Source: Coleofasciculaceae cyanobacterium
GTDB taxonomy: Bacteria > Cyanobacteriota > Cyanobacteriia > Cyanobacteriales > Xenococcaceae
Assembly (NCBI GenBank): GCA_036703275.1
Contig: DATNPK010000089.1
Coordinates: 1 to 64,000, forward strand
Reading direction: 5' to 3'
DNA length: 64,000 nt
Shown: positions 194-44,960 of the stretch, piece after piece
Layout: every line of letters starts with the position of its first letter
Numbering within the stretch: the stretch's first letter is position 1
The notes under the pieces: generated by a model
What the model saw: the letters and a program-made list of their open reading frames with translations, nothing else
Told to the model about the DNA's origin: nothing
The model's database searches: none
Program-made: the position numbers and the translations under genes

Positions 194-240
194 AAATGAC
201 TTTTGCTAAGATAACTTATCAGTGGTCAAGATAAAAGAAA

Positions 241-272
241 TGCTCTCCATGTACTTGGAGGGCATTTTTTTT
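241..272 (+). terminator. Rho-independent terminator after psbA
   Basis: An 8-bp stem (TGCTCTCC 241-248 with GGAGGGCA 257-264, one G-T pair) encloses an 8-nt loop and is followed by eight T residues (265-272). It lies about 48 bp after the psbA stop and is a textbook intrinsic terminator. Confidence 0.9.
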
Positions 273-653
273 GGCTAGTTTTTAGTTATATCAATAAGAA
301 AAAATATACTTAAATTAAACCTTTACCTCCAAAGAATTTTTTAACTAAAATTTATCTTAAAGTAACGATTTGGTATAAATTCCATAATCCTGCTGCGTTT
401 GACATCAAACTGTCATCAAGATTTTTAGTTTTTTTACAAGTTTACAAGAATTGCTGATATTATTATTCAAATGCCCGTATCAGTATATTTAAAAGCTTTT
501 ATTATTAATTATCTCTTAAAACTCTTAATAATCTATCCTGCTCGATTACTCTCGCTATTTTTAACGTTCTTTTGCTGTCGAGTATTTATTTTTATTTTTT
601 CCTATTTTTAGATAAATTTATTATGTCGATTTTGCTTAAAGGTTATAACTTAT
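273..653. other. Intergenic spacer, no gene seen
   Basis: AT-rich spacer between the psbA terminator and the 3' end of the convergent pseudokinase gene. I see no credible ORF, tRNA or repeat. T-rich runs near 590-610 are unremarkable for this genome. Confidence 0.5.
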
Positions 654-2171
654 TTACTGTATTTTCCAAGAATCAATCATCTTTTCAACAGTGTCATAAA
701 ACCGATAAAATTTAGCTCTTTCAGCAGTATAAATAGCTATGTAGACTTGATTGTTTCTGATTGTAAAAGCTTCCATTTGCCTGAGCTGCAATTTTCCTTC
801 CTGACGAGAATAAATCACAGTCCGAGCAGGAAAATTATTGATAGTTGTTTTAGTGTCTTTATATGATTCAATTTTACTACCCTTTGCTTGATTAATACGA
901 TTGAAAACAGTTTGAGTGTATTGTTCTAAGCTAGTAGATTCTGATGGTAAATATTCAACAGCAATATTAACTTTTTCGAGGAATAAATCTGCATCGGTTT
1001 CTAAAGGAGAGGCGAAAACTACTATCTCTCCAGTAATTGGATCGTCTAATTGACGCTTTGACCAATCTTGAGGATATCTAATTTCAAATTGATAGTCATC
1101 ATTAATATAGCTAGCGAAATTCTGGTCTGAGTTTTTATGAATACCAATAAATATAATTGTTGAAGCAAGAATAAAAGGCAATGCGAGCAGCGACCAAATT
1201 ATTTTGGCGGAAAACTTGGAATGACCAACTGATGATAAGAAATTAGCTTGTTTTTTGACTCTCTTAGAAGATGATGGTACAAAGTAAGAGCTGTCAAAAA
1301 AAGGTGGAGGTAAAGTAATTACGTTGTGTACATTGTGATTGAAGTCTAGTTCAGCTAAAATTTCAGTTGCTGATTGATAGCGTTGATCGCGAACATCACT
1401 GACCATTTTATTAAGAATATCGGCTAACTCAACTCTGATATTTGCTGTAGACAAATTGTTCGAGCTACCTACTTGTGCAGGCTCGATTAAATCTGTAGAT
1501 TTTGAATAAATAAAGTCAGTAATATTGCCAGTTAAAGCATAAATAATTGTTTTACCTAAGGCATAAATATCAATGTTAAAATCAAATTTTTCTCGATGTC
1601 TTGAAGGATTAAAATTGTTATTAATTATAATAGTTTTTAAAGGTTTATCGCTCGACAAAACAGCTGTTTTAATTGCAGCAAAATTAATTAAAAATTTTCT
1701 ACCATCTTGATGCTGAACTAAGCTTGAAGGTTGTATATTGAAATGAGTTATACCTGCTTTATGAGTAAATTCCAAAATACCAATAATTTCTTGCAACCAG
1801 ACAACTGCTTCTGCTTCATCGATTAATTTGTTCTTTAACTTTTGTTCTAAACTTTCACCTTTGATCTGTTCATAAACTAGATAAAATTCGCGATCGCATT
1901 CAAAAAAAGCTAATAGTTGGGGGATTTGCGGATGCTGGCTAATATTTTTCAGAAGATTCGCCTGAGTCACAAACGTTTGAAGAACTTTTTGCCAAGACTG
2001 TGCGCCTAAAACTTCGTTATCGTACTGAGGCTGCAATCGTTCTATTTTGCATTGTGCTTTGTTGTTTGGCTCGAGATCTTCTGCAAGATAAATTGTACTA
2101 AAATCGTCTTGACTTAGCTCTTGAAGGATGCGGTAGCGATCGCACAATATTTTACCAACTATTGACTCCAT
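654..2171 (-). CDS. Membrane pseudokinase with PsbP-like C-terminal domain
   Basis: 505 residues. Residues ~10-280 have a eukaryotic-type Ser/Thr kinase fold: the ATP-anchoring Lys is probably K42, and a DIYALG motif near 201 matches subdomain IX. The catalytic motifs are degenerate: HRDLKPxN reads HFNIQPSS at 143-150 and DFG reads NFA at 163-165. Catalytic Asp and Mg-binding Asp are therefore both Asn. A single membrane span (~323-345) leads to a C-terminal ~155 residues resembling the PsbP/PsbP-like fold (YQFEIRYPQDW near 360-370). Family knowledge: many cyanobacterial kinases of this type carry a membrane anchor and a sensor domain. Inference: a catalytically weak or dead regulator or scaffold with a sensory domain across the membrane. 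Single-gene unit, convergent with psbA, 64 bp upstream-adjacent to the peroxiredoxin gene on the same strand. Confidence 0.8.
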   Translation of the reverse strand: MESIVGKILCDRYRILQELSQDDFSTIYLAEDLEPNNKAQCKIERLQPQYDNEVLGAQSWQKVLQTFVTQANLLKNISQHPQIPQLLAFFECDREFYLVYEQIKGESLEQKLKNKLIDEAEAVVWLQEIIGILEFTHKAGITHFNIQPSSLVQHQDGRKFLINFAAIKTAVLSSDKPLKTIIINNNFNPSRHREKFDFNIDIYALGKTIIYALTGNITDFIYSKSTDLIEPAQVGSSNNLSTANIRVELADILNKMVSDVRDQRYQSATEILAELDFNHNVHNVITLPPPFFDSSYFVPSSSKRVKKQANFLSSVGHSKFSAKIIWSLLALPFILASTIIFIGIHKNSDQNFASYINDDYQFEIRYPQDWSKRQLDDPITGEIVVFASPLETDADLFLEKVNIAVEYLPSESTSLEQYTQTVFNRINQAKGSKIESYKDTKTTINNFPARTVIYSRQEGKLQLRQMEAFTIRNNQVYIAIYTAERAKFYRFYDTVEKMIDSWKIQ

Positions 2172-2235
2172 TTAGATTTAACTCAGCTCACAGCACCAAA
2201 TAAACATGGGTTTCTATTGTAACTAAAACTAGTTT

Positions 2236-2841
2236 TCAACTAGATAATTCTCGATTTAATTCATCTAAACGGGCTAATACTTCCTGACTATGAATGCTTG
2301 GTCTAACTCCTAAAAAGGTTGTTCGCAAAATACCCTCTGGATCGATTAAATAGGTATGTCTCAAAGACATTGCTCCCAACCAAGAACCGTAAGCTTTGCT
2401 AACGCTACCATCCTTATCTGTTAACAAGGGAAAGTTAAGCCCTTCTGAATCGCAAAATTCAGCATGAGAATCAATATTATCAACGCTAACTCCTAAAACT
2501 TGTGCATTTCTTGTTCTATATTCTGCAAGGTCTTGTTGAAAACGTCGAGCTTCTAGAGTACAGCCTGAAGTAAAATCTTTTGGATAAAAGTACAGTACAA
2601 CCCATTGTCCGCGATAATCTTTTAAAGCAATATCTCCATCACCTGTATTGGTAGGCAAAACAAATTCAGGAGCAGGCTTATCGAGTGGTGGCTGTTTGCC
2701 TCCCATTGCCCAGGCATCTGACAAAGTTAATCCAAAAAGCAAAAAAGACAAACCAATAGATAACCAAAATTGAACGCGTGGGATACGTCGTCTTAGGGTG
2801 CATATCCAACCACATTGTTGAATCGAAAGCAAACGTTTCAT
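2236..2841 (-). CDS. Secreted/lumenal peroxiredoxin of the BCP/PrxQ type
   Basis: 201 residues. An N-terminal signal peptide is visible: Arg-rich start, hydrophobic core ~25-42, and an AWA-M cleavage-like site at ~44. The mature part is an AhpC/TSA peroxiredoxin: PAPEFVLP at ~56, FYPKDFTSGCTLE at ~85-96, with the peroxidatic Cys at C94. The PrxQ resolving Cys normally five residues later is absent (Arg there). Another Cys in EFCDSEG, ~37 residues on, might resolve, or the enzyme may be 1-Cys. Role: thiol-dependent reduction of H2O2 or organic peroxides in the periplasm or thylakoid lumen. ATG start at 2841. Same strand as the pseudokinase downstream with a 64-bp gap, so cotranscription is possible. 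Confidence 0.88.
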   Translation of the reverse strand: MKRLLSIQQCGWICTLRRRIPRVQFWLSIGLSFLLFGLTLSDAWAMGGKQPPLDKPAPEFVLPTNTGDGDIALKDYRGQWVVLYFYPKDFTSGCTLEARRFQQDLAEYRTRNAQVLGVSVDNIDSHAEFCDSEGLNFPLLTDKDGSVSKAYGSWLGAMSLRHTYLIDPEGILRTTFLGVRPSIHSQEVLARLDELNRELSS

Positions 2842-3010
2842 AATTTACAAAAATATGTTTTACTTATCATAAGATTACAAGTAATGCTTAAACCATAACA
2901 AAAAATTAACCTGCAAAATTAATTTGTTGTGGTTCAAATTGAGTACATTCTCCAAATTATTTGTTAACGTAGTTGCCTAAATATCAAGCTTAGTAATAAA
3001 AAAGGAATTT

Positions 3011-4174
3011 ATGAGTACAAATTTAATTGCACCTCATGGCGGTGAGCTGATCGATCGCCTGGCTACCGCTGAAGAAAAGCAAAATTTCTTAGCCAAAGCA
3101 AATTCTTTGCCCAGAATTCAGTTAGACAAAAGAGCAACTTCCGATTTAGTTATGATTGCGATCGGTGGTTTTAGTCCAATCGCTGGCTTTATGGGTCAAG
3201 ATGACTATTTAGGCGTGGTTAAAGATATGCGTCTGGCTAGCGGTGTTCCCTGGTCAATACCTGTAACCCTCTCTGTAACTTCAGAAGTGGCAAACCCTTT
3301 ACAAGTTGGTAGCTTAGTTCGTTTAGACAATACTAATGGTAAATTTATTGGTATTTTGCAGCTAAGCGAAAAGTACAGCTATGATAAAAAGTTGGAAGCC
3401 AAAAATGTTTACCGCACTGACGAAGATAAACATCCTGGGGTAAAAGTAATCTACAAGCAAGGAGAAGTTAATCTTGCAGGGCCAGTTTGGTTACTCGAGC
3501 GAGAAGAACACCCGCAGTTTCCTAAGTATCAGATCGATCCTGCTGCCTCTAGAGCAATGTTTAAAGAAAAAGGTTGGAAAACAATAGTTGGGTTTCAAAC
3601 TCGTAACCCAATTCACCGCGCTCATGAGTATATTATTAAATGTGCCTTAGAAATTGTTGATGGTCTATTCTTGCACCCTTTGGTAGGAGCTACCAAAAGC
3701 GATGACATTCCTGCTGATGTTAGAATGCGGTGTTACGAAATCATGATGGAAAACTATTTTCCCCAGGATCGGGTTGTATTAGCGATTAATCCCTCTGCGA
3801 TGCGTTACGCAGGGCCTAGAGAAGCAATTTTCCACGCCTTAATTCGCAAGAACTATGGCTGTACACATTTTATAGTCGGTCGCGATCATGCAGGCGTGGG
3901 GGACTATTATGGTACTTATGAAGCACAAGAAATCTTTGGTGAATTTGACCCAGAGGAATTAGGGATCACTCCTCTTAAGTTTGAACACGCTTTCTACTGT
4001 ACTCGTACAGAACAGATGGCAACAGCGAAAACCAGTCCCGCAACTAAGGAAGAACGCATTCACCTGTCGGGAACGAAAGTTCGGGCAATGCTGAGAGAAG
4101 GGAAAACTCCACCACCACAATTTTCTCGTCCTAAAGTCGCCGAAGAATTAGCCAGAGCAATGAAAGTCAATTAG
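3011..4174 (+). CDS. sat: Sulfate adenylyltransferase (ATP sulfurylase)
   Basis: 387 residues, the usual length of single-domain bacterial/cyanobacterial ATP sulfurylase. It makes APS and PPi from ATP and sulfate, the first step of assimilatory sulfate reduction in the cytoplasm. Visible motifs: TRNPIHRAH at 197-205 (the HxxH nucleotide-binding motif) and [12 protein letters not shown] from residue 290. There is no APS-kinase extension. ATG start at 3011, preceded by AAAGGAAT. Monocistronic-looking, with an imperfect inverted repeat after the stop. Confidence 0.97.
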
Positions 4175-4190
4175 TCTGGTTAAGTGGTGA

Positions 4191-4225
4191 AACAGTTCTG
4201 TCGGCGAAATCGTTGCAGAACCGTT
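4191..4225 (+). terminator. Possible hairpin terminator after sat
   Basis: AACAGTTCTG (4191-4200) can pair with CAGAACCGTT (4216-4225) with one A-C mismatch. Only a weak T-run (CTTTTAAT) follows about 6 bp later. Plausible 3' end of the sat transcript, not a strong intrinsic terminator. Confidence 0.4.
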
Positions 4226-4262
4226 GGAGCTTTTAATAAGATTGAGATAATTATTAATTGTT

Positions 4263-4385
4263 ATGGCAAAACACTATAATTGGTTACAGGTTCAAGAGAT
4301 TCACTTCTCGAGCTGTAACCTTGATGATTTCTACCAACATTTGGCAGCTATTATTGATAGGCTGATGCAGATTTCTAGACGCTAG
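4263..4385 (+). CDS. Possible 40-residue small ORF
   Basis: ATG at 4263 to TAG at 4383-4385. The peptide begins MAKHYNWLQV and ends LMQISRR; I do not recognise it. It sits between sat and the orthocaspase-like gene, whose ATG follows 9 bp after the stop, so it could be a translated leader ORF. An 8-bp inverted repeat (GGTTACAG/CTGTAACC, ~4281-4320) lies inside it. No Shine-Dalgarno is obvious. Could equally be chance. Confidence 0.25.
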   Translation: MAKHYNWLQVQEIHFSSCNLDDFYQHLAAIIDRLMQISRR

Positions 4386-4393
4386 TAGCTGAT

Positions 4394-6694
4394 ATGGGAC
4401 TTGACCGCAGAACTTTTCTACAGCAAGCTGGATTGGCTTGGTTTACTTGGGGAACAACCGAGGCTGGAATTTCATCTCTATTGAGTAATAACCGCCTGGC
4501 AGCCTCAATTAATTCTTATCAAGAAACTTTAATACAACCGACTAACCGTAAATTAGCCTTGCTGGTAGGGATTAATCGTTACCCTTATCATGATAATTTG
4601 ACAGGTTGTCTGATGGATGTGGAACTACAGCGAGAACTATTAATTCATCGTTTTAATTTCAATCCCAGTGATATTCTTACTTTAAGCGATCGCCAAGCTA
4701 CTAGGGAAAATATTGAAACTGCTTTGGTCGAACATTTAGTAAAACAGGCTAAACCAGATGACGTGGTCTTGTTTCACTTTAGTGGTTATGGAGGTCAAAT
4801 CAAAATGCCTTTAACCTCAGGTAGTGAAGCAGCTAAACAAACAGCCAGTACTGATTCCTTTGGCATAGCTAATAGCTTTGTACCAGTAGATGGATTAGCA
4901 TCGTCAAAGAAAGCTTTGTTTGCCAACAGCATCCTGCAAGAAACTCTTTTAGTATTAGCCCAATCTTTATCTACGAGCAAATACACTTTTGTTCTCGATA
5001 CTTGTTTTAATACCACTCCTGGCAGCCAACATGGCAGCTTTAAAATTCGCTCCATTCCTAACATAGCTGAAAGCCCCAGTTCTCAAGAACTAGATTTTTT
5101 GGCACAATTACGCGACAATCTAGCTAATAAAGGACTTAAACCCAGTAAAAGATTATTATCTCTGCCTGGAGTAGTTTTATCTGCTACCAGCAAAAATCAA
5201 ATAGCAGCAGAAAGACAGTGGGGTGGTTTGAGTGCTGGGCTATTTACCCAAGCTTTAACGCAGCATCTTTGGCACATTACCCCCAGTAGCAAGGTACAAG
5301 TGGCGATCGCCAGAACGGCCGAAACGGTAGAGCAATTTATGGGTAACCAACAGCAGCCTACTCTGAATAATCCTAATAAATCAGCGCTCGCCTATTATTT
5401 AGCTGCTAGCGATGTTCCTAATGCTGTTGGAATGGTCAGTATGATTGCTAAAAATGGCAATGTAGAAGTAAAACTTTTAGGTTTGCCAGCTAATATTTTG
5501 GACTGTTACGGAGTTGATTCCTGTTTAAGTTTGGTATCTAATTCTCAAAATGCTGCTCCTCAACTACAGGTAAAGTCAAAAGAAGGTTTAATCGCGAAAA
5601 CTCAATTATTATCTCCAGCGCTCGAACTTCAAGTCGGAGAATTTGCTGGTGAATCGATCCGCATTCTCAGGCGCGATCTAAATTTGAATTTAGCATTAAA
5701 CGATGATTTGCAAAGAATCGAACGAGTTGATGCCACTAGCGCCCTAGCCAATATTGCCGCCATTAATTCCGCAGTGGTTGCTAAAGAACAAAATGCCGAT
5801 TGTCTTTTAGGAAAAATAGCTTTAAATCCAGCTTTAAAATCTGCTGCTAATTTAGAAACTGAAACACCAGTCTTTAGCTATGCTTTGTATACTGCTGGCG
5901 GGAATTTGATTGCTAAAACAAAGGGAATAGTAGAAGAAGCCGTTAAAATTGCTATCGACCGTCTTCAGCCTCAATTCAACAATCTTTTGGCAGCAAAATG
6001 GCTGGAATTGACTAACAATGAATTTTCTTCGAGATTGAAAGTTAATGCAGCTTTGACAACAGGAGTTGCCAAACAATCTGCTAGCTGGCAAAGATCTACT
6101 CATGCTTCAGAGAAGCTGCAACTAGCTGCTAAACAACCAGTTTTCTCGACTAGTGTTGGTGGTTCAAATACTGACACTAAGAGTAACGTGCCGCTCTTAG
6201 TCAAGGGTACAGAAATCAATTTAGCTTTAAATAATACAGGCGATCGCCAACTGTATGCGGTCATCTTAGGTATTGATTCTGACTGTAATATCTATGGTCT
6301 TTATACTCCAGCAGAATCTTCTACTGCTGAAGCAGCAATCAAGCTGGAGGATATTGCGATCGCCTCTGGTAGTGAGTTGGTGATTCCTGACTCAGACAGT
6401 TCTTGGAAGTGGAAAGTTCCTGAATCAGTGGGCATCAACACTCTATATGTTATTTTTGCTGTTCAACCATTTCAAGCAACACTTAAAGCTTTTTCCACTC
6501 AACAAAACTTCAAGCTCGACCAACAGCAAGTGCTAAACGTGACTAATTCGATCGCTGTAATCAATTCCTTAATGCAGGATTTACACCAAGCAAGTTCTGT
6601 TTCGAGCGAACTATTGACTAACGGAAATGTCTATGCTCTAGATGTTAATAGCTGGGCAACCTTAAAATTTGTCTATGAAGTAACGACCGCTTGA
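4394..6694 (+). CDS. Orthocaspase-like (C14) protein with substituted dyad and DUF4384-like tail
   Basis: 766 residues. N-terminus DRRTFLQQAG is a twin-arginine-type motif followed by a weak hydrophobic stretch, suggesting Tat export or membrane tethering. Residues ~53-340 form a caspase p20-like domain: LALLVGINRYPYH opens it, DDVVLFHFSGYGGQ near 121-135 is the SGHG motif with the catalytic His replaced by Tyr132, and VLDTCFN holds Cys204 at the normal nucleophile position. So the His-Cys dyad is Tyr-Cys here. The C-terminal part (~600-700) with LYAVILGIDSDCNIYGLY resembles the DUF4384 domain often appended to such proteins. Family knowledge: cyanobacterial orthocaspases cut after basic residues, and variants with substituted dyads are thought inactive. 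Inference: a pseudo-enzyme with binding or regulatory function, or altered chemistry. Confidence 0.82.
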   Translation: MGLDRRTFLQQAGLAWFTWGTTEAGISSLLSNNRLAASINSYQETLIQPTNRKLALLVGINRYPYHDNLTGCLMDVELQRELLIHRFNFNPSDILTLSDRQATRENIETALVEHLVKQAKPDDVVLFHFSGYGGQIKMPLTSGSEAAKQTASTDSFGIANSFVPVDGLASSKKALFANSILQETLLVLAQSLSTSKYTFVLDTCFNTTPGSQHGSFKIRSIPNIAESPSSQELDFLAQLRDNLANKGLKPSKRLLSLPGVVLSATSKNQIAAERQWGGLSAGLFTQALTQHLWHITPSSKVQVAIARTAETVEQFMGNQQQPTLNNPNKSALAYYLAASDVPNAVGMVSMIAKNGNVEVKLLGLPANILDCYGVDSCLSLVSNSQNAAPQLQVKSKEGLIAKTQLLSPALELQVGEFAGESIRILRRDLNLNLALNDDLQRIERVDATSALANIAAINSAVVAKEQNADCLLGKIALNPALKSAANLETETPVFSYALYTAGGNLIAKTKGIVEEAVKIAIDRLQPQFNNLLAAKWLELTNNEFSSRLKVNAALTTGVAKQSASWQRSTHASEKLQLAAKQPVFSTSVGGSNTDTKSNVPLLVKGTEINLALNNTGDRQLYAVILGIDSDCNIYGLYTPAESSTAEAAIKLEDIAIASGSELVIPDSDSSWKWKVPESVGINTLYVIFAVQPFQATLKAFSTQQNFKLDQQQVLNVTNSIAVINSLMQDLHQASSVSSELLTNGNVYALDVNSWATLKFVYEVTTA

Positions 6695-6760
6695 ATGATT
6701 ACTAATTACTGATAATCACCCTAATCAGCTTATTTTATTGCTTAAATTCACGTCAGATAA

Positions 6761-8023
6761 ATGCAACCGACTGATATTGTTATTTTATCTAATGGCCCTG
6801 GAGAAGTGGCAACTTGGGTACGTCCTGTGGTTAAATGTTTGGCTCAAGTTATGACAGATGAGCAAATTGGACAAATTAGGATTTCAGTGTTGTTGTCCCC
6901 TTGTCCTCATAGTACTGGTAAAGAAGCAGCGATCGCCTCTAGCTACCCTGAAGTAGAGCGAGTGTTACCAGCCTCTGATTTTTGGGCTTTTCTTTTTTGG
7001 GGCAAAACTAAAGATGATTGGCAATGGCATCAACGTGGCATCGTGGTCTTTTTAGGAGGTGACCAGTTTTATACCGTTGCTATCAGTAAAAGATTAGGCT
7101 ACTCAAGCTTAATTTATGCAGAATGGGATGCTCGTTGGTATCGCTTGGTTGACCGCTTCGCAGCGATGAAACAAACAGCGATTGAGCGAGTACCGAAGTC
7201 TTATCGACACAAATTTACTCTGGTAGGAGATTTGATGGCAGATGTGACATTAGGAGTAGATAATCAATCTAGCCAGTTAAAACAAGATCCGCCTGTAATT
7301 GGGTTACTGGTAGGCTCAAAACCAGCCAAACTGTCTCAGGGTGTTCCTTTATGTTTAGCGATCGCTGAAAAAATTTGCCAGCAAGATCCTCAAGTTAAAT
7401 TTATTATTCCTGTTGCCCCTACCCTCGATTTAACTACTCTGAGTAAATATGCCAATCGGCAAGACAATCGTTTAATCTCATCTCTAGGTAATGTTGAAGC
7501 AGAATTGGTTTTGGCTACCGCAACTCAAGCTGCTTATCTTTTGACCCCTCAAGGAACAAAAATTCAACTAATTACCAAGTTTCCTGCCTATGATACTTTA
7601 GTTAACTGTCAGATATGTTTGACTACTGTAGGAGCTAATACTGCTGAATTAGCCGCTTTGAAAGTACCAATGATTGTTTTGTTGCCGACTCAGCAACTAG
7701 ATGCCATGCGTTCCTGGGACGGACTACCAGGGATTTTAGCTAATTTACCAGGGTTAGGATCGGCATTTGCCAAATTAATCAATTGGCTAGTGCTTAAGCA
7801 AGGACGTTTGTTTGCCTGGCCCAATATTTGGGCAGGAGAGGAAATTGTACCTGAATTAGTGGGCAAACTTGAGCCAGAAATGGTTGCTGAATTAGTGTTA
7901 GACTACCTTGCCCATCCCGAAAAACTTCAAGCCATGCGCGATCGTTTACAGGTACTCGGAGGACGAACTGGCGCAGCCAACCAGATCGCAGATATAATAA
8001 AACAAGAAATAACTAAAACTTAA
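6761..8023 (+). CDS. Lipid-A-disaccharide synthase-related protein
   Basis: 420 residues. The start ILSNGPGEVATWVRPVV matches the LpxB-related glycosyltransferase family found in cyanobacteria, which is distinct from authentic LpxB. Two Rossmann-type halves are expected (GT-B fold): N-terminal half to ~190, C-terminal half with the LLVGSKPAKLSQGVPL stretch near 185-200 and the TTVGANTAELAALKVPMIV donor-site region near 290-310. Probable role is a sugar transfer in envelope or lipid biosynthesis; substrate unknown. ATG at 6761, 66 bp after the orthocaspase-like gene on the same strand. Confidence 0.8.
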   Translation: MQPTDIVILSNGPGEVATWVRPVVKCLAQVMTDEQIGQIRISVLLSPCPHSTGKEAAIASSYPEVERVLPASDFWAFLFWGKTKDDWQWHQRGIVVFLGGDQFYTVAISKRLGYSSLIYAEWDARWYRLVDRFAAMKQTAIERVPKSYRHKFTLVGDLMADVTLGVDNQSSQLKQDPPVIGLLVGSKPAKLSQGVPLCLAIAEKICQQDPQVKFIIPVAPTLDLTTLSKYANRQDNRLISSLGNVEAELVLATATQAAYLLTPQGTKIQLITKFPAYDTLVNCQICLTTVGANTAELAALKVPMIVLLPTQQLDAMRSWDGLPGILANLPGLGSAFAKLINWLVLKQGRLFAWPNIWAGEEIVPELVGKLEPEMVAELVLDYLAHPEKLQAMRDRLQVLGGRTGAANQIADIIKQEITKT

Positions 8024-41389: not shown

Positions 41390-43273
41390 ATGTGCGGAAT
41401 AGTCGGTTATATTGGCACTCAAGCAGCTACAGACATTTTAATATCTGGTTTAGAAAGATTAGAGTATCGAGGTTACGATTCGGCGGGAGTAGCGACTGTT
41501 GAAGAAGGTCAAATTAACTGTGTTAAAGCTAAAGGTAAGCTGCTAAAGCTAAGAGAAAAGCTAGAACAAGCCGTCAATAAATCTCAACTCGGTATTGGTC
41601 ATACTCGCTGGGCAACTCATGGTAAGCCAGAAGAACACAATGCCCATCCTCATCTAAATTCCGCTCGAACTCTGGCTGTGGTACAAAATGGCATCATTGA
41701 GAACTACCTAGAGTTGAAAGAAGAATTAATTAGTCAGGGGATTGAATTTCGCTCCCAAACCGATACTGAGGTTATTCCGCACTTAATTTCTCAGTTTTTA
41801 GCTAACTCCAAATCTTTATTAGAGTCAGTGCAAAAAGCGATCGCCAAACTAGAAGGGGCATTTGCGATCGCCGTTGTCAGTGCCGATAATCCCTATGAAT
41901 TAATAGTTGCTCGTCAACAAGCGCCTTTAGTCTTGGGTTTCGGACAAGGGGAATTTTTCTGTGCTTCTGATATGACAGCAATTTTGCCTCATACTCGGAC
42001 TATTCTCACTTTAGACAATGGAGAAATAGCTAGACTTACGCCTCTAGGGGTAGAAATTTATAATTTTGCAGGCGATCGTGTTTCTCGTTTTCCTCGTACC
42101 CTTGACTGGAATCCCGTACAGGCAGAAAAGCAGGGTTTCCGTCACTATATGCTCAAGGAAATATATGAGCAACCTGCGGTAGTGAGAATTTGCTTGGATA
42201 ACTGCCTTAATCCCAATTGGCACGCCCATGAAAATCCTGATTATAGTCCTGTAAATCTTGGTTTGTCGCCAAACCTTACTGATAACTTGGAACATATCCA
42301 AATTTTAGCCTGTGGTACAAGCTGGCACGCTGCCTTGGTTGGCAAGTATTTATTAGAACAAGTCGCAGGTATTCCCACTACCGTAGATTATGCTTCTGAG
42401 TTTCGCTACTCTCCCAAGCCGATCATTGCTAACACCTTAACTATTGGTGTAACCCAGTCTGGAGAAACCGCCGATACTATTGCAGCCTTAGAATCAGAAA
42501 GAGCTAGAAGAGCTAATTTAGAACCCAAGCGACAGGCAAAGTTAATCGGGATTACTAACCGCCCAGAAAGCACTATTGCGCAGATAGTCGATCGCGTAAT
42601 TGATACTCATGCAGGTTTAGAAATCGGCGTTGCAGCCACTAAAACCTTTACCGCCCAGGTAATTAACTTCTATTTCTTAGCTTTAGATCTTGCTTATCGC
42701 CGTAAGAATATACCCAACAGTAGAATCGGCGAGATCATCGAAGGTTTACGCCATATTCCTAGCCAGATTGAAACCATCATTGACACCCAAGCAGATGCGA
42801 TCGAAGCATTGGCACACGACTTTACTACCGAAACCGAAGACTTTATTTTTATTGGACGGGGTATCAACTTCCCGATTGCTTTAGAAGGTGCATTAAAGCT
42901 CAAAGAAATTTCTTATATCCATGCAGAAGCCTATCCCGCAGGAGAAATGAAGCATGGACCGATCGCTTTATTAGACAACAAAGTACCAGTAGTCGCCATC
43001 GCGATGCCTGGAAGCGTCTATGAAAAAGTCATTTCTAATGCCCAAGAAGCCAAAGCAAGAGATGCTCGTTTAATTGGTGTCACTACTGCTATGAATGCCA
43101 CCGAAGCAGCCCACACTTTTGATGATGTCTTAACTGTCCCAGAAGTAGATGAATTAGTTTCTCCTGTGTTAGCGGTTATACCCTTACAGATGTTGTCGTA
43201 TCATATTGCAGCGATTAAAGGGCTAGACGTAGATCAACCAAGAAATCTCGCAAAAAGCGTTACTGTTGAATAA
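41390..43273 (+). CDS. glmS: Glucosamine-6-phosphate synthase (isomerizing)
   Basis: 627 residues. Ntn glutaminase with Cys2 nucleophile (MCGIVGYIG), THGKPEEHNAHPH, then two SIS domains (GTSWHAALVGKYLLE, VTQSGETADTIAAL, GRGINFPIALEGALKLKEISY). The C-terminus DVDQPRNLAKSVTVE is the universal end whose coding DNA is the TnsD binding site of Tn7. It makes glucosamine-6-P for peptidoglycan and polysaccharide precursors. A Tn7-like relic begins 25 bp after its stop. Confidence 0.98.
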   Translation: MCGIVGYIGTQAATDILISGLERLEYRGYDSAGVATVEEGQINCVKAKGKLLKLREKLEQAVNKSQLGIGHTRWATHGKPEEHNAHPHLNSARTLAVVQNGIIENYLELKEELISQGIEFRSQTDTEVIPHLISQFLANSKSLLESVQKAIAKLEGAFAIAVVSADNPYELIVARQQAPLVLGFGQGEFFCASDMTAILPHTRTILTLDNGEIARLTPLGVEIYNFAGDRVSRFPRTLDWNPVQAEKQGFRHYMLKEIYEQPAVVRICLDNCLNPNWHAHENPDYSPVNLGLSPNLTDNLEHIQILACGTSWHAALVGKYLLEQVAGIPTTVDYASEFRYSPKPIIANTLTIGVTQSGETADTIAALESERARRANLEPKRQAKLIGITNRPESTIAQIVDRVIDTHAGLEIGVAATKTFTAQVINFYFLALDLAYRRKNIPNSRIGEIIEGLRHIPSQIETIIDTQADAIEALAHDFTTETEDFIFIGRGINFPIALEGALKLKEISYIHAEAYPAGEMKHGPIALLDNKVPVVAIAMPGSVYEKVISNAQEAKARDARLIGVTTAMNATEAAHTFDDVLTVPEVDELVSPVLAVIPLQMLSYHIAAIKGLDVDQPRNLAKSVTVE

Positions 43274-43308
43274 TCGACTCGATTTTTTGCTCTTAATTGT
43301 GGATTAAT

Positions 43309-43375
43309 AATAAAGTTGGAAACTTAGTAATAAAGTTGGAAACTTTTTGCAGATTAATAATAAAGTTGGAAACTT
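43309..43375 (+). repeat. Right-end TnsB-type binding repeats (3 copies)
   Basis: Three perfect 17-bp copies of AATAAAGTTGGAAACTT at 43309, 43329 and 43359 (spacings 20 and 30 bp). Multiple overlapping or phased TnsB sites define the R end in Tn7. Confidence 0.88.
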
Positions 43376-43417
43376 TGACTGTACAATAATAGTAATACTG
43401 TATTGTTCAGTTTTCTA

Positions 43418-43516
43418 ATGGCTAGAAGCAGATACGATTGGACTCAAGCTAAGTTTGAGCGATATGTAAAAGAAGGACGAGGTAAAGGTAGAGGAAAAGA
43501 CTACAAGCCTTTGTAG
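43418..43516 (+). pseudogene. tnsA: tnsA 5' fragment
   Basis: ATG 43418 to TAG 43514-43516, 32 codons. KEGRGKGRGKDYKPL aligns with the N-terminus of Tn7 TnsA, where the family reads KEGRGxGxGKDYxPW; here Trp is replaced by Leu and a stop follows. The catalytic endonuclease domain and everything downstream are gone. Its start lies 120 bp inside the transposon end, in the Tn7 position and orientation. Too short for any activity. Confidence 0.88.
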
Positions 43517-43647
43517 AATTCAACTGAATTTATCCCCAAAGCCCTATTTAGTAAATTCAGGTTAATCTTGTTAATATACCAAACGTACGATTAGTCAAAT
43601 TATCAAAATTGCTAGTTATGAAAACTTTATCCTGTATAAATTTCAGC

Positions 43648-43732
43648 AAAGTTTCCAACTTTATTTAATAAGGTTCATTTTTATCTGACCTAACAATAGG
43701 CTTTTTAGCCTGCAAAAGTTCCCAACTTTATT
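43648..43732 (-). repeat. Left-end TnsB-type binding repeats
   Basis: AAAGTTTCCAACTTTATT (43648-43665) and AAAGTTCCCAACTTTATT (43715-43732) are inverted versions of the right-end repeat, 67 bp apart; Tn7 L-end sites are likewise more widely spaced. Confidence 0.85.
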
Positions 43733-43743
43733 GTCACTCCACA

Positions 43744-44024
43744 TTATTGCCAACATAAATGTCAAATCTAGAGCCGCTATCTGGATTTAAGATGTATTTT
43801 TTGCCTAGAAGTTAGCGATCGCCCAGTTTCAGGCTGCGTCCGACCTTGAGTACACAAAATGTATATTTCCCAATCTGACTATTAGAGCGATCGCCATAAA
43901 TCTGGAGCTAATTTGTTTTGAATTAACAGTGATCGCCATTGAATTTGATAAATTAGTGTATTTATCAAACAATTTAAATCAAAATTTTTTTATCTTCTGT
44001 AGAAAAAATATCGCTTATTGCAGA
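43744..44024. other. Spacer after the Tn7-like relic
   Basis: No ORF seen; contains two GCGATCGC/GCGATCGCC HIP1-type sites and AT-rich sequence leading to the 3' end of the GT2 gene. Confidence 0.4.
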
Positions 44025-44960
44025 TTATAATTTGCTTAAAAACTTTACTGGAGCAATAAAATATAATTCTGATAAAATTAGTTTAATTAATAATCTTTGA
44101 GTGTTAATTTGCAGTAAGCTCGGAGGATACAATAAAATAGAACTTTTAAGATTTTGCTTGGCACTAACTAGACTTTCACGATTATTAATACTGATCTTTT
44201 TTCGATACAGATCTGCACAGTATAGATATAAAATACTATAACTTTGGTTTTTTTGTAGTTTTAGGTCAGTTGTCGCTGTTTGGTAAACTCGGTCTAGTAA
44301 TAATAAACTTTCTTCCTTGAGCTGTTCAACCTTAGTAGACATCGAATTGGCAGACTGGCGATAATAAATCTGGAATTTAGGAACAACTGCAAAATTAAAA
44401 TTTTTGGCTAAACGCAAATAAAAATCCCAATCTGCTGTATAGGCAAGTTTAGGATTAAAACCTGGAACTAGATCTAAAACATCTCGATGAACGAGAATAT
44501 TAGAAGCATTAGTTAAAAAGTTGGTTTGTAGAAGCTGTTGGTAAACATCTCCTCGATAAGAGTAACGAGTTCCTGAAAATAAAGGTTTTCCCTGTTCGTC
44601 AATATACTGAGTCCAGCTATAAACCACTTTAGCTTCAGGATTTTGGTATAGTGCTTCAATCTGCAATGCTAATTTATCTGGACTCCATAGGTCGTCTGCA
44701 TCTAAAAAAGCAATGAATTCTCCAGTAGCATGAGAAATACCGCGATTTCGAGCGGTAGCTACACCGCCATTTTCATAGCTAAAAAGCTTTAGTCGAGGTT
44801 CGGCTATATTTTTCACTACCGCTATCGTATTATCTTGAGAGCCATCGTCAATTACAATTATTTCGTAGTCACTAAAACTTTGTTGCTGTAGCGAAGTAAT
44901 AGTTTCTTCTATTGTCTTCTTGGAGTTGTAAGTGGGAATGATTATTGATATTTTGGACAT
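44025..44960 (-). CDS. Glycosyltransferase family 2
   Basis: 311 residues. GT-A fold: SIIIPTYNSKKTIEETI, IIVIDDGSQDNT and the DXD-type FLDADDLWSPDK; the C-terminal half lacks membrane spans except a possible hydrophobic end. Soluble or peripheral transferase adding a sugar from a nucleotide donor. First (leftmost) gene of the polysaccharide locus, paralogous to the GT2 genes at 52-54 kb. ATG 44960. Confidence 0.93.
   Translation of the reverse strand: MSKISIIIPTYNSKKTIEETITSLQQQSFSDYEIIVIDDGSQDNTIAVVKNIAEPRLKLFSYENGGVATARNRGISHATGEFIAFLDADDLWSPDKLALQIEALYQNPEAKVVYSWTQYIDEQGKPLFSGTRYSYRGDVYQQLLQTNFLTNASNILVHRDVLDLVPGFNPKLAYTADWDFYLRLAKNFNFAVVPKFQIYYRQSANSMSTKVEQLKEESLLLLDRVYQTATTDLKLQKNQSYSILYLYCADLYRKKISINNRESLVSAKQNLKSSILLYPPSLLQINTQRLLIKLILSELYFIAPVKFLSKL

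Follow-up and report, generated by a model that had tools for sequence, protein, structure and literature searches.

The window analysed here, a stretch of 64,000 nucleotides on contig C89 of genome G000 (an assembly of 5.6 Mb in 116 contigs), contains a glmS gene that is followed, with 24 nt between its stop codon and the left terminus, by a short element bounded by TGTGG and CCACA (Table 1). When the outermost 28 nt of the left and the right end are compared, 24 positions pair; in a control with 28-mers of the window lying 300-700 bp apart (200,000 random pairs), the best paired at 19 positions and none at 20 or more. The 5-mers directly outside the termini agree at four of five positions, and since 2.8% of the flank 5-mer pairs match equally well, this agreement no more than hints at a target-site duplication. 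The G+C content of the element is 31%, compared with 39% for the window, and the element is present once in its own genome assembly. Rfam yielded no matches for positions 43200-44100 at gathering thresholds, and a crude script looking for 22-mers recurring at 50-90 bp spacing found no CRISPR-like arrays in the window; the same script flagged three longer stretches from relatives (L067, L145, and L149).

Table 1. Features of the element downstream of glmS (window positions; site distances counted from the respective terminus).
Feature	Position	Strand	Remarks
glmS (627 aa)	41390..43273	+	ORF call; region 3' of the gene is the Tn7 attachment site
Possible 5-bp target-site duplication, left copy TTAAT	43293..43297	.	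4/5 same as right copy
Whole mini element, TGTGG...CCACA	43298..43743	+	446 bp
Putative TnsB-type site 1, glmS side	43309..43325	+	position 12; binding predicted
Putative TnsB-type site 2, glmS side	43329..43345	+	position 32; binding predicted
Putative TnsB-type site 3, glmS side	43359..43375	+	position 62; binding predicted
tnsA leader, imperfect palindrome CTGTACAAT...ATTGTTCAG	43376..43417	+	aligns with leaders of several relatives
First 32 codons of tnsA, then stop at or beside deletion junction	43418..43516	+	ORF MARSRYDWTQAKFERYVKEGRGKGRGKDYKPL*
Interval with deletion junction	43511..43544	.	DNA similarity to G001 stops at 43511, similarity to G016 far end begins at 43544
Far-end segment common to G016 element	43544..43743	+	86% over 122 bp, 79% over 96 bp
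Inner far-end putative TnsB-type site	43649..43665	-	position 79
Terminal far-end putative TnsB-type site	43716..43732	-	position 12
Possible target-site duplication, right copy TTATT	43744..43748	.	4/5 same as left copy

Both ends of the element carry arrays of a 17-mer, AATAAAGTTGGAAACTT. Next to glmS, it is present in three exact direct copies; at the far end, it is inverted and present twice, with no mismatch in the inner copy and one in the terminal copy. At up to three mismatches, these five are the only matches in the 64 kb, and in ten simulated sequences of 64 kb (first-order Markov) the number of such matches ranged from 0 to 3. Inverted end arrays of TnsB-type sites together with TGT...ACA termini are expected of a Tn7-like transposon and, as judged from sequence only, the 17-mers represent putative TnsB binding sites. 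In Tn7, the left end has three TnsB sites set apart from each other, whereas those of the right end are packed more densely, and the window element shows a similar asymmetry. Longer elements of the family, e.g., that of G025, have the same 17-mer in their near end, and the near-end repeats of the window element are still identical to one another, which fits either a young relic or a maintained unit. Among 150 genomes, the pattern of two near-end repeats was found in the own genome only, because the repeats drift, and an exact-pattern scan for part of the inner far-end segment gave no matches in a named genome collection that possibly lacks genomes near the window's own. An earlier note on this DNA had proposed a Tn7-like element with three direct and two to three inverted repeats. 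Its identification agrees with the inverted arrays, the termini, and the tns genes found behind such ends in relatives, and its count holds for the direct copies, while the inverted ones number two. Repeats scattered apart from any transposon, which the note had named as evidence to the contrary, were not encountered; the repeats line the ends of elements carrying tns genes in ordered arrays.

The ORF following the near end codes inward from the glmS side, and its 32 residues are 74% identical to the start of TnsA from the congeneric genome G001 (E=1.2e-11), as the same note had assumed. Of the profile check recommended there, the Pfam part gave no match with the 32 residues alone, and the search with the G001 TnsA sequence did match the fragment; the N-terminal domain recognized by Pfam in G001 TnsA begins at residue 74, past the part that remains in the window. 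In Tn7, tnsA adjoins the glmS-side end as well. TnsA matches were found in 21 genomes of a draw of 388 from the class and in 19 of 150 relatives (the two sets overlap), and in both surveys the sole match in the own genome was this tnsA start. The imperfect palindrome in the leader upstream of tnsA is perhaps an operator. Such a palindrome between near end and tnsA is clearest in G017 (CTGTACAAT...ATTGTACAG), and the Nostoc elements contain a different palindrome-like stretch at this place.

The glmS 3' end was obtained from 24 of the 27 family genomes searched, and 11 of these (G000, G001, G007, G013, G015, G016, G017, G019, G022, G023, and G025) contain a Tn7-type near end, whose TGT start lies 23-25 nt after the glmS stop in all 11 cases, in accordance with the attachment site postulated previously. 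One of them, G017, has two glmS 3' ends, with a near end at one and none at the other. Several of these insertions are decayed: G007 retains two repeats and a 13-codon ORF starting like tnsA, G013 has kept a single repeat, and in G019 three repeats are followed by an internal piece of tnsB. The other 13 genomes show no Tn7-type end in the 420-700 nt examined past glmS. In four of them (G009, G012, G020, and G021), cas8-like pieces, which are short in the latter two, are present about 2.9-3.6 kb past glmS, suggesting that elements were lost from these genomes as well. The closest congener by glmS (G008, 90%) lacks the element and shows no repeat at up to three mismatches in 6 kb, so the 446 bp do not recur there as the conserved non-repeat sequence that had been named as a refutation. 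The glmS alignment with sister genomes proposed earlier thus returned genomes without the end; the exact empty site was not located by aligning the joined window flanks with G008, because the intergenic DNA of the two does not align. None of these genomes yielded a full element whose far end closely resembles that of the window, the near match being a collapsed element in G016.

The gene content of the longer relatives gives a view on the probable parent. Reading from glmS, the G015 element contains tnsA, tnsB, tnsC, tniQ, cas6, cas8, cas7, and cas5 up to the contig end, with tnsA in two frames and apparently interrupted by a short insertion. Pfam recognizes an AAA/TniB domain in TnsC and a partial TnsD domain in the TniQ, which is short, and NCBIfam assigns the G015 Cas proteins to Cas6/Cmx6, Cas8a1/Cmx1, Cas7/Cst2, and Cas5/Cmx5. 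The NCBIfam names of the relatives' Cas proteins point to types I-MYXAN and I-B, the former of which we take to be filed under I-B. In G022, the order is tnsA, tnsB, a split tnsC, tniQ (a TniQ-like ORF of 147 aa recognized by eye), a piece of cas6, and a short cas8, and in G001 tnsA and tnsB follow glmS, with tnsC present in two pieces at contig ends. All these relatives are themselves incomplete, as the assemblies break inside the elements, and no complete glmS-type TnsD was seen in the portions preceding the contig ends. TnsA of G001 and TnsB of G015 are homologous to solved Tn7 proteins (1f1z, E=2.2e-43, and 7pik, E=5e-124, respectively), and tnsA and tnsB are separate genes in G001, G017, and G022. 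As far as described in the part of the literature considered here, type I-B1 CASTs are close relatives of Tn7 that occur in cyanobacteria only and use a glmS-targeting TnsD, and the I-B2 and I-D CASTs have fused TnsA-TnsB proteins (PMC11406308). The separate tnsA and tnsB genes at glmS therefore point to I-B1, and the parent of the window element was probably of this kind.

Compared with type I-B1 CASTs such as AvCAST and Tn7743, as these are described, the window element shares the glmS attachment site and the cyanobacterial host, and the longer relatives also share the separate TnsA and TnsB and the combination of TniQ with Cas6/8/7/5; in contrast to them, the window element retains just the ends and the 32 tnsA codons. 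The type I Cascade genes and TniQ that support the CAST parentage considered in the earlier note are present in the G015 element and absent from the one in the window. With Tn7, the element has the insertion point past glmS and the position of tnsA in common, but the relatives carry CRISPR genes and the window element is without a complete transposition gene. As a pair of ends without a transposase, it also resembles MITEs or the mini-Tn7 constructs used in laboratories.

The far ends allow a further comparison. Putative TnsB-type sites start 12, 79, and 134 bp from the terminus in G016, G182, and a contig of G015 (C262), and those at 12 and 79 are also present in G003 and in the window element. 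Past its second far-end site, the window sequence continues like that of G016 past the third one (134), and a 55-bp deletion therefore appears to have fused two far-end sites of the window element with loss of one, which would imply a three-site far end in its ancestor. The three-site far end of G015 (L151, about 7534-7690) is located on a contig unlinked to the glmS contig and, since its outer 5-mer is by eye unlike the glmS-side one, may derive from a second insertion.

Of the gene set of an autonomous Tn7-like transposon (TnsA, TnsB, TnsC, and a target selector), nothing but the 32 tnsA codons is found in the window element, and the remainder of the genome offers little that would match it. 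A search with G001 TnsA retrieved only this fragment, the relatives' TnsC and Cas8 gave no matches, and their TnsB found three TnsB-like proteins of 23, 28, and 30% identity. The best of these belongs to a separate cluster on an 8.7-kb contig (C71, L095, positions 222-6988), which codes for a TnsB-like protein (792 aa) and a TniQ (by Pfam) and, as judged by eye, an AAA/TniB-like protein and a second TniQ-like protein (647 aa). No TnsA is present among the ORFs of at least 90 aa on this contig, and no AATAAAGTTGGAAACTT-type repeat occurs in the cluster at up to three mismatches; it reads as a Tn5053-like element or an untyped Tn7 relative.

Taken together, the window element is very probably what is left of a collapsed Tn7-like transposon that targeted glmS and was of the type I-B1 CAST kind. 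The full element would have landed 24 nt downstream of the glmS stop, oriented with tnsA next to glmS, a deletion would have extended from about tnsA codon 32 as far as the inner side of the far end, and the additional 55-bp deletion between repeats would have eliminated one far-end TnsB-type site, although we infer the number and order of these events from the remnant itself. An ordinary intergenic region with chance repeats has a practically negligible probability, as it is contradicted by the simulations and the random-pair control, by the lack of the element in G008, and by relatives in which tns genes follow the same ends. A natural non-autonomous mini-element, which related Tn7-like or CAST machinery in the same cell could still move to glmS, would agree with the presence of both ends with their termini, with the lack of any difference among the three near-end 17-mers and one far-end copy, and with the recurrence of this 17-mer in longer elements. 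We nevertheless regard it as quite improbable, since the far end has one site fewer than in the relatives, the genome is without a matching transposase, and no full-length copy was found in the 12 congeners searched; MITE-like mobile families occur in several copies at different sites, which distinguishes them from the window element. Its single copy in the genome is a weak argument in this respect, as a glmS-specific element need not multiply. The earlier note had left the choice between a relic and a mobilisable unit, and the relic is the better supported of the two because matching TnsA, TnsB, TnsC, and Cas8 proteins, the third far-end site, and a second copy are all missing. With one site lost compared to its three-site relatives, the mobility of the element is doubtful, and it is presumably no longer moving; as both termini are present, it could still be mobilised in trans.

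A composite origin appears rather unlikely but deserves more weight than the mini-element. In this case, two Tn7-like elements would have inserted in tandem past glmS, the first contributing the near end and tnsA start and the second the far end, brought together by a deletion. The closest parallel to such an origin is the collapsed element of G016, which belongs to another genus of the same family. There, a near end with three copies of a different 20-bp repeat (TAATTCGGT..ACAATTTA) is followed by a 50-residue tnsA start and then, in two pieces, by the far end similar to that of the window, which is of the AAAGTTGGAAACTT type. The repeats of the two ends differ and are unlikely to form a working pair for one TnsB, and this element is therefore read as probably representing a fusion of two elements; its outer 5-mers (CTTGT and CAAAA) are unlike as well. 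Head-to-tail ends spaced 5 bp apart are present at two other loci. In G003 (L011, about 5330-5470), a far end is followed by GTGAT and the near end of another element, about 12 kb from glmS, past a histidine kinase-like gene and beside an mreD-like gene (both by eye). In G182 (L155, about 700-1730), a AAAGTTGGAAACTT-type far end is followed by AAACT and a near end with three copies of another repeat, AAAACGGTTGGACAATTTGT, and a shortened tnsA, whose match stops at query residue 196, indicating that this second element is decayed too. Tandem insertion and subsequent deletion would provide a route to fused elements such as that of G016, and we read these loci as a pile-up and collapse of elements. 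In the window, however, the repeat is the same at the near and the far end, so that internal deletions within one element suffice, and the 4/5 agreement of the outer 5-mers leans toward a single element, although either route may have produced the remnant.

Whether such miniatures form a recurrent class is a more speculative matter: we give little credence to a scheme in which glmS-linked mini-CASTs arise repeatedly by head-to-tail stacking and collapse to an end pair, which a later CAST would remobilise or whose target immunity would block insertions. No natural two-ended Tn7/CAST miniature was found among the papers listed, as judged from titles and the beginnings of abstracts, and such remnants may already be in print in specialist work. 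The element represents a compact natural end pair of a CAST-like lineage whose far-end site positions (12/79/134) recur in relatives from several genera, and its locus illustrates the decay of such insertions at their safe harbour. The hybrid of G016 and the 5-bp head-to-tail junctions give a hint that one site may accommodate elements differing in their end sequences, a point of relevance to target immunity between lineages.

Some further loci were recorded in the course of the comparison. Nostoc sp. FACHB-973 (L109) was initially suspected to contain a third mini-element, as its tnsA match stops at query residue 81. Inspection by eye showed a tnsA start, inserted sequence, and a tnsB fragment, with no convincing inverted copy of the end repeats in the 3.4 kb searched, and this reading was dropped. 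A 36-bp match within an ORF of G012 (L005) was taken as chance, as were, by eye, the weak far-end matches in G051 and G048. In G138 (C1, about 3.4724 Mb; L080, about 1500-1603), a far-end-like stretch is located about 2 kb beyond a partial match to tnsA. It has a TGTCAAAG terminus, with sites at positions 12 and 81, and is likely a real far end; a near end was not found at this tnsA locus at up to three mismatches. Finally, G017 (contig C30, L033) and G018 (L037) contain, at a distance of about 300 to 950 nt past glmS, additional sequences resembling the glmS 3' end, which possibly represent decoy or restored attachment sites.
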